A stretch of 64,000 nucleotides of DNA, taken from assembly GCF_021495345.1 (NCBI RefSeq), contig NZ_CP099397.1:1798001-1862000 (forward strand), given 5' to 3'. A model generated the notes under the pieces. It was given only the letters and a program-made list of their open reading frames with translations, had not been told where the DNA came from and ran no database searches. Positions 1,182 through 2,723 of the stretch are shown piece by piece; within the stretch, counting starts at the first letter, position 1; the number at the start of each line of letters is the position of its first letter. The translations under genes and the position numbers were made by a program. This DNA is from Pseudomonas hydrolytica (GTDB taxonomy: Bacteria > Pseudomonadota > Gammaproteobacteria > Pseudomonadales > Pseudomonadaceae).

Positions 1182-1208
1182 TAAAGCTTGCCTCCTGACG
1201 GCCGTTAA
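1182..1208 (+). promoter_or_regulatory. FliA (sigma-28) type promoter of the DUF5610 gene
   Basis: TAAAGCTT at 1182-1189, an 11-nt spacer, then GCCGTTAA at 1201-1208. This matches the flagellar sigma-28 consensus TAAAGTTT-N11-GCCGATAA at 14 of 16 positions with exact spacing. It lies 32 bp upstream of the ATG at 1241. The rest of the 320-bp gap 921-1240 shows only a small AGACT-TT-AGTCT palindrome at 1019-1030 and no other gene. Confidence 0.7.
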
Positions 1209-1240
1209 GTTCGGCAGATAACCTACTTGGGTACCTCGTC

Positions 1241-2380
1241 ATGAAACCTCTGGCCTCGCTCAATCCTTCCGCCGCTCGCACCGCGCAAGCCAGTCAGTCC
1301 ATCGCTGCGCGCAACAATGCTGTCGACCCTCAGGCCACGCTGGCCAATCGGCTGGCCGAAAAGCTCGGCCTGCAGCCGGGCGCACTCAATGGCAAGCGCG
1401 ATGACTTCAGCCCCGAAAAGGTCGCGGAGCGGGTCTTGGGTTTCATCGAACAGCGCATCCAGAGCGAGGCGGCCGCCGGTGCCGATCCCGCCAAGCTTGA
1501 GAAACTGCTGTCGCAGGCCCGTGAAGGTGTGGAGAAGGGCTTTGCCGAGGCACGCAAGATTCTCGATGGCATGGGTGTACTGAAAGGCCAGGTGGCCAGC
1601 GATATCGATGACACCTACAAGCGCATCCAGGACGGCCTGGGCGATCTCGACAAGCGCTTCGGCGGTGCGGCGTCGGGTGTCGGCGACAAGGTGGCGGTGG
1701 CTGGTTATCGCGAGCGCTTCAGCGCGGTGGCCGAAACATTCGATCTTTCCGTCACCACGCGCGATGGCGATCGCCTGCGCATTTCCGTGGCGCAGGCTTC
1801 GGCCAGCTGGTCGCAGAGCAGTTTCGCGGCGTCCAGCGATGGCAAGAGCAGCACCCTGGTGGGCGCCAGCCAGTCCGGCAGCATGCGTATCGGCGGTTGG
1901 CAGGTGAATGTCGAAGGCGAGCTGGACGACGACGAGATCAAGGCGCTGGAAAAACTCTTCAGCCAGGTGCAGGAGCTGTCCGACAAGTTCTACGCGGGTG
2001 ATCTGGCCGGGGCGTTCGACCGGGCCATGGCGCTGGAGATGGATGGCGAACAACTGGCGTCGATGTCGCTGCGCCTGACCCAGACCACCGTGCGTCAGGC
2101 GACCGATGCCTACGGCGCGGTAGCCGGGCAGGGCGCCAGTGCGGTGAATGCCGGGCTGCAGGAATATGCGCAGGGCCTGCTCGACGCGCTGCGCAGCGCC
2201 AACGACCTGGCGCAGAATGCCGGCGGTGTGCTCAAGGAACTGCTCAAGGGCGGCTTCTCGCTCGATGAGCGATTCGACCTGCCGCGCCTGGAGAAGGCCG
2301 ACAGCCTCAACCGCAGCCTGATCGACGGCCTGCAGTCGCTGCTCGCCGGTCAGTCCGACAAGGGTGTCGGCGCGAGCTGA
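1241..2380 (+). CDS. DUF5610-family protein, probably motility-regulon
   Basis: A 379-residue protein without signal peptide or membrane segment. It is rich in Ala, Leu, Gln and acidic residues and probably mostly helical. The central section (LEKLLSQAREGVEKGFAEAR, then a long region of heptad-like spacing) resembles DUF5610 proteins of pseudomonads, a family of unknown function. The ATG at 1241 has only a weak ribosome-binding site. A near-consensus FliA promoter lies directly upstream, which suggests co-expression with late flagellar and chemotaxis genes. That regulatory link is an inference from the promoter; the protein itself shows no known flagellar motif. Confidence 0.75.
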   Translation: MKPLASLNPSAARTAQASQSIAARNNAVDPQATLANRLAEKLGLQPGALNGKRDDFSPEKVAERVLGFIEQRIQSEAAAGADPAKLEKLLSQAREGVEKGFAEARKILDGMGVLKGQVASDIDDTYKRIQDGLGDLDKRFGGAASGVGDKVAVAGYRERFSAVAETFDLSVTTRDGDRLRISVAQASASWSQSSFAASSDGKSSTLVGASQSGSMRIGGWQVNVEGELDDDEIKALEKLFSQVQELSDKFYAGDLAGAFDRAMALEMDGEQLASMSLRLTQTTVRQATDAYGAVAGQGASAVNAGLQEYAQGLLDALRSANDLAQNAGGVLKELLKGGFSLDERFDLPRLEKADSLNRSLIDGLQSLLAGQSDKGVGAS

Positions 2381-2428: not shown

Positions 2429-2665
2429 ATGACGCCTGAATGCCAACTTTTCGGAACCCTGGGCTGCCACCTCTGCGAGGTGGCAGAGGCGTTGCTCATG
2501 CCGTTCGTCGAGAACGGTCTGCTGGTCGAGCTGATCGATATCGCCGAGCACGAGGGCATGGTCGAGCGCTACGGCTTGCGCATTCCCGTGTTGCGCCGTT
2601 GCGACACCGGGAACGAGTTGAACTGGCCGTTCGACGCCGAGCAGGTGGTGGCTTTTCTGCGCTGA
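2429..2665 (+). CDS. Glutaredoxin-like (DUF836) thioredoxin-fold protein
   Basis: A 78-residue protein with a redox CxxC motif (Cys13-His-Leu-Cys16 in GTLGCHLCEVAE) followed by a helix, and a cis-proline segment RIPVLRR near residue 52. These are hallmarks of the small glutaredoxin-like DUF836 family. Its partner and substrate are unknown. It follows the DUF5610 gene by 48 nt and is closed by the terminator at 2695-2723. AGAACGAGGTGC upstream provides a reasonable ribosome-binding site. Confidence 0.85.
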   Translation: MTPECQLFGTLGCHLCEVAEALLMPFVENGLLVELIDIAEHEGMVERYGLRIPVLRRCDTGNELNWPFDAEQVVAFLR

Positions 2666-2694: not shown

Positions 2695-2723
2695 AAAAAA
2701 CCCGCCGGTTAAGGCGGGTTTTT
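2695..2723. terminator. Bidirectional intrinsic terminator
   Basis: AAAAAA-CCCGCC-GGTTAA-GGCGGG-TTTTT forms a 6-bp GC stem flanked by A and T tracts. It ends the plus-strand glutaredoxin-like gene and the minus-strand tRNA-Pro transcript. Confidence 0.85.

Follow-up and report, generated by a model that had tools for sequence, protein, structure and literature searches.

The window analysed here, a 64,000-nt stretch of Pseudomonas hydrolytica DNA, carries on its plus strand an open reading frame that runs from an ATG at position 1241 to the end of a stop codon at 2380 and that encodes a cysteine-free protein of 379 aa. The nearest named proteins and loci point to a genome of the Ectopseudomonas kind. 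Pfam assigns residues 32-136 of this protein (1334..1648, plus strand), which are predicted to be helical, to the DUF5610 domain (PF18433), with a match of 117.5 bits against a curated cut-off of 26.4. Compared with the PF18433 family, with which it shares these residues, the protein is of a long type that adds a second, C-terminal half (residues 165-379; 1733..2377, plus strand), also found in proteins without PF18433. No Pfam match over the cut-off was obtained in this C-terminal half and no NCBIfam match to the 379-aa protein. The first-pass annotation had described a DUF5610 protein devoid of any flagellar motif, and this description holds: neither Pfam nor NCBIfam gave a credible match to a flagellar axial or motor family, nor to the rod, hook and filament families. 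A weak FlgD match in one of 57 members (E 0.0012) was judged to be noise, as were weak matches to phage, toxin, lectin and other families.

Structure predictions had a mean pLDDT of 57 when made from the single sequence and of 51 when made from a 57-row alignment, and the sole usable part of the models is the N-terminal half, for which a helical bundle is predicted fairly confidently. Foldseek with the predicted structure returned nothing at an E value of 0.001 or better, and neither the long protein nor its profiles, when compared by sequence with solved structures, gave a credible match. The one solved relative found, PDB 3SJR, corresponds to the uncharacterised protein CV_1783 of Chromobacterium violaceum, which looks like a distant DUF5610 relative; the other VIA-align matches look like common helical bundles and were set aside.

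Upstream of this gene lies a putative promoter for the flagellar sigma factor FliA (sigma-28), composed of a -35 element, TAAAGCTT (1182..1189), an 11-nt spacer, GCCTCCTGACG (1190..1200), and a -10 element, GCCGTTAA (1201..1208), all on the plus strand, so that TAAAGCTT-N11-GCCGTTAA spans 1182-1208 and leaves 32 nt before the ATG. The FliA consensus used for comparison is TAAAGTTT-N11-GCCGATAA, which the box matches at 14 of 16 bases and with exactly the N11 spacing, confirming the near-consensus box that had been reported 32 bp ahead of this start codon. This consensus agrees with the FliA sites mapped in E. coli (PMC4183435, Table 2). A scoring matrix built from 20 of these mapped sites gave the box a score of 18.9, the first rank among 127,946 window positions, with the runner-up at 12.3. 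This score exceeds those of just four of the 20 E. coli sites (leave-one-out, range 8.2-29.3) and lies below those of all seven scored boxes of flagellar and chemotaxis genes of the same genome (19.3-25.9). In this genome, boxes of this type precede the genes for flagellin, FlgM, FliS, two chemoreceptors and a PAS-domain (aer-like) chemoreceptor. No sigma-70-like site was listed by a scan of the gene's own strand upstream of the DUF5610 gene, from position 900 on.

Searches with the pattern TAAAG-N14-GCCG-N-TAA gave the box of the DUF5610 gene as the sole match without mismatches in the window, where the 23 matches with up to three mismatches were not above shuffled sequences (mean 17.4). In the whole genome (5.29 Mb), exact matches were found twice, before the DUF5610 gene and before fliC, while matches with one mismatch (14) were fewer than in a reversed control (28); counts in the genomes of eight relatives were likewise about those of the controls. 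A second FliA pattern matched exactly before the DUF5610 gene and flgM, and its nine matches with one mismatch included fliS, fliC and an aer-like gene, with families checked. Within a single genome, the box is therefore only partly beyond chance and suggestive as a lone match. Since a single genome offers little proof, it is the conservation of the box before orthologues that carries weight.

A lack of such conservation had been named beforehand as a possible refutation of a FliA link, and the upstream regions of orthologues were scanned for boxes with at least 12 of 16 matching bases and an exact N11 spacer; the outcome did not refute the link. In the Pseudomonas group, such a box preceded 77 of 80 orthologues (the best 80 of 278 relatives found), with the start codon 30-34 nt past the box in at least 75 of these 80 loci. 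By comparison, 12 of 16 matches were reached in 21 of 4,000 shuffled upstream regions, and 5 of 834 neighbouring ORFs, as called by a crude gene caller, had a box. The three misses, which were kept in the total of 80, are a locus whose contig ends before the start (L065), one with no box (L075) and one that reaches 11 of 16 matches (L123), where an N12 form of the box can be made out by eye. After exclusion of these three and of a fourth locus with too little upstream sequence (L072), 76 loci were aligned on the box. The mean information was 1.44 bits in the -35 element, 1.70 in the -10 element and 0.39 in the spacer, compared with 0.23 in the 60 nt upstream and 0.48 in the 60 nt downstream; as rows were anchored on their best match, the values of the box columns are somewhat inflated, while the fixed distance to the start is unaffected. 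T1, A3 and A4 of the -35 element and GCCG of the -10 element were invariant over the 76 promoters, and most of the spacer was nearly free.

The box was also conserved well outside the genus. A wider survey covered the 58 of 68 distinct DUF5610 matches for which DNA was at hand (the ten left out came from the phylum set), the box being sought within a 110-nt upstream region. In the Gammaproteobacteria, it was found before 22 of 24 genes for long DUF5610 proteins (347-560 aa), including 13 of 15 from outside the genus, compared with 4 of 279 neighbouring ORFs; the two long orthologues scored as lacking it are L040 and L036, the latter having 10 of 16 matches at the right position. Boxes were less frequent before genes for short proteins made of DUF5610 only, with 6 of 15 in the Gammaproteobacteria and 4 of 19 in other classes, a count in which one short gene (L041) was scored as a miss with a 15/16 box lying 125 nt before its first ATG, beyond the 110-nt region. 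Separately, in f210, a family belonging to another class, 7 of 10 genes for short DUF5610 proteins (L165-L168, L173, L175 and L177) have some 30-60 nt ahead of the start codon an element scoring 11-12 of 16, which is perhaps a local, lineage-specific form of the sigma-28 box.

A search with the C-terminal half alone recovered nine more proteins, all scoring below the cut-off for PF18433, two with a trace of that domain (L210 and L217) and seven without any; another match to the C-terminal profile (L216, in genome G233), histidine-kinase-like by its translation, had been dropped before this count. A box with at least 12 of 16 matches preceded one of the first three ATGs in 6 of the 9, and in 4 of the 7 without a PF18433 trace; wider upstream regions give 7 of 9, the box of L215 preceding a later ATG. 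Judged by these proteins, the C-terminal half forms a separate domain, as yet unnamed. In one genome (G248), the two halves are encoded by different genes, L041 for a short DUF5610 protein and L212 for the C-terminal half, each with a strong box, and in Pseudomonas the two parts form one protein. This split hints that the two halves work together, as far as one case can tell.

The conserved box departs from the canonical one in its -10 element. At position 5 of the -10 element, T or C was found in 75 of the 76 aligned Pseudomonas-group loci (among the best 80 of 278), giving GCCGY before DUF5610 genes in contrast to the GCCGA of FliA late genes: the seven other scored FliA-type boxes of the same genome have A at this position, as do flgM of genome G574 (FlgM identity checked) and a chemoreceptor-like gene of G028. 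GCCGY is thus a conserved variant that is new here, and this departure may tune the strength or the timing of the promoter.

DUF5610 was found in 15 of 57 relatives, 17 of 274 class genomes and 40 of 299 phylum genomes, whereas the 14 control genomes gave no match. FliA is encoded in the same genome as the gene studied here (271.4 bits against a cut-off of 189.6), and among the class genomes it was above the cut-off in 14 of the 17 that carry DUF5610 versus 143 of the 257 that do not (Fisher p 0.025), a modest association that was not significant for the long types alone (7 of 8 genomes, p 0.08). It was also above the cut-off in 13 of the 15 DUF5610-bearing relatives. The DUF5610 genomes with no FliA above the cut-off are G109, G277 and G289 in the class and G046 and G051 among the relatives, three of the five being 81-90% complete. 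No flagellar cluster was found around the DUF5610 gene in 20 neighbourhoods, save for cheV, which lies at a distance of up to about 10 kb in three of them, when judged with a crude gene caller against a partial set of the flagellar ORFs of this genome. The genome also encodes a second sigma-28 (230 bits) with fliD-, fliS- and motB-like genes nearby, as well as another FlgK and, under the cut-off, a FliG-like gene (all at G000:C1:186000-226500, with L152, L153 and L249, and at 5061617), which are signs of a second flagellar system, with a cluster near 0.2 Mb. A link between the DUF5610 gene and that system was considered and rejected: seven genomes of this genus carry DUF5610, and just two of them (G000 and G008) have a second sigma-28 above the cut-off.

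Downstream, at 48 nt past the stop codon of the DUF5610 gene, lies a plus-strand gene (2429..2665) for a Glrx-like CxxC protein (PF05768). Such a gene is the next one after DUF5610 in 75 of the 80 Pseudomonas-group loci (best 80 of 278), with a gap of 42-50 nt in 51 of the 72 gaps measured, and it also follows DUF5610 in three other families (L126, L127 and L130), with gaps of 76, 89 and 91 nt. This conserved neighbour is new here. The window scan listed no terminator between the two genes, and the Glrx-like gene is likely the second gene of a DUF5610 transcription unit, as judged from this arrangement. A terminator-like plus-strand hairpin followed by a T run, CCCGCC-GGTTAA-GGCGGG (2701..2723), noticed by eye and absent from the terminator scan list, is likely the end of this unit. 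A tRNA-Pro gene (cgg) lies just past the Glrx-like gene on the minus strand (2728-2804).

Because the box is conserved in the Pseudomonas group, across the class and before relatives of the C-terminal half, the membership in the late flagellar regulon that the first-pass annotation had offered as inference is now strongly supported, and we infer that the DUF5610 gene is very probably controlled by FliA. Whole-genome motif counts that do not exceed the reversed controls would suit a chance match, or a box with another function; since conservation lies far above that of neighbours and shuffles, and since the distance to orthologue starts is fixed, such an origin is hardly credible. The second sigma-28 and the flagellar genes around it raise the question whether the box could serve that factor instead of the polar FliA, yet five other genomes of the genus (G001, G012, G013, G014 and G028) carry both gene and box with one sigma-28 above the cut-off, making this very improbable. 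With FliA as the preferred factor, the box at 1182-1208 would act as a promoter driving a short late-class (class IV) unit, made of the DUF5610 gene and then of the Glrx-like gene, the latter reached most likely by read-through. During flagellar assembly, completion of the hook lets FlgM exit the cell, and FliA is thereby freed. Given this known order, expression of the unit would coincide with that of flagellin, flgM and the chemoreceptors. According to PMC8036289, fliC, che, mot and flgM/N are class IV genes under FliA in Pseudomonas, and the FliA regulon varies between species.

The DUF5610 product would then be a soluble late accessory of the flagellum, a suggestion weaker than that of FliA control, and two molecular roles were weighed. 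In one, the protein would be exported late by the flagellar type III apparatus, to be secreted or to become part of the filament end or its surroundings. The late-class promoter fits with this, as do the lack of a hydrophobic segment in all 24 long types (the mean over 19 residues peaks at 1.18 or less), the richness of the first 30 residues in S/T/N/Q/A/P/G in many of them (0.40-0.77) and a serine content about that of FliC, FliD, FlgK, FlgL and FlgM together. To our knowledge, exported flagellar axial proteins are usually, though not by definition, without cysteine; no statement to that effect was found in the sources consulted, including the parts used of PMC7911332 and PMC8306008. Cysteine was absent from 24 of 24 long types and from 78 of 80 Pseudomonas-group members (best 80 of 278), compared with 6 of 92 and 43 of 294 neighbouring ORFs, and from 29 of 30 FlgK proteins used as a control. 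This absence was first adopted as a mark of export and then lost most of its force, since the cytoplasmic control FliG was cysteine-free in 30 of 30 cases (all of one genus) and since FliF, FlhA, CheZ and FliS of this genome are cysteine-free too, showing that the trait is not diagnostic of export. Acidic and lysine contents are closer to those of the cytoplasmic flagellar set, so that the evidence from composition is mixed, and a match to rod, hook or filament families is lacking. In the other, the protein would stay in the cytoplasm as a late accessory that acts on the motor, the export gate, the chemotaxis array or the FlgM/FliA balance. The soluble sequence, the charged composition, the predicted N-terminal helical bundle and the Glrx-like gene in line behind agree with this role; against it, family searches gave no credible link to known flagellar or chemotaxis proteins, and a stable cluster linkage is lacking. 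Considering the FliG control, we rank the cytoplasmic accessory, which we give an even chance, ahead of the exported protein, which we see as a tentative alternative.

The conclusion that the DUF5610 family, with its unnamed domain, would be a new member of the known FliA regulon is strongly supported by the upstream regions. We found no paper on DUF5610 in the open-access literature, nor any report, at the level of titles and listings, that describes this family as flagellar or links it to the late flagellar regulon, in keeping with the initial remark that such a link was not known to be described. For Shewanella, PMC3120886 mentions 169 sigma-28 sites obtained by prediction, and since these are tabulated, a prediction for a DUF5610 relative could exist there. 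FliA control would provide DUF5610 and the unnamed second domain with a first biological context, in late flagellar assembly or swimming, and this gene would then probably be a component of the swimming machinery that has so far been overlooked. A bolder and rather speculative proposal is that DUF5610 proteins and the relatives of their C-terminal half form an unrecognised modular late flagellar family of the Gammaproteobacteria whose members are produced only once the hook is complete, share their transcript with a Glrx-like partner and may pass out through the flagellum; if exported, the DUF5610 protein would represent a novel type of substrate for this route.

The DUF5610 gene shares with the FliA late genes of the same genome (flgM, fliC, fliS and chemoreceptor genes) the layout of its promoter, the spacing and the distance between box and start codon. 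Unlike them, it stands alone with its Glrx-like gene and encodes a protein without an assigned function. In E. coli, ycgR, yhjH and flxA stand apart from the flagellar clusters. These three genes, which appear in Table 2 of PMC4183435, likewise have stand-alone FliA promoters, a likeness to the DUF5610 gene that concerns promoter layout alone.
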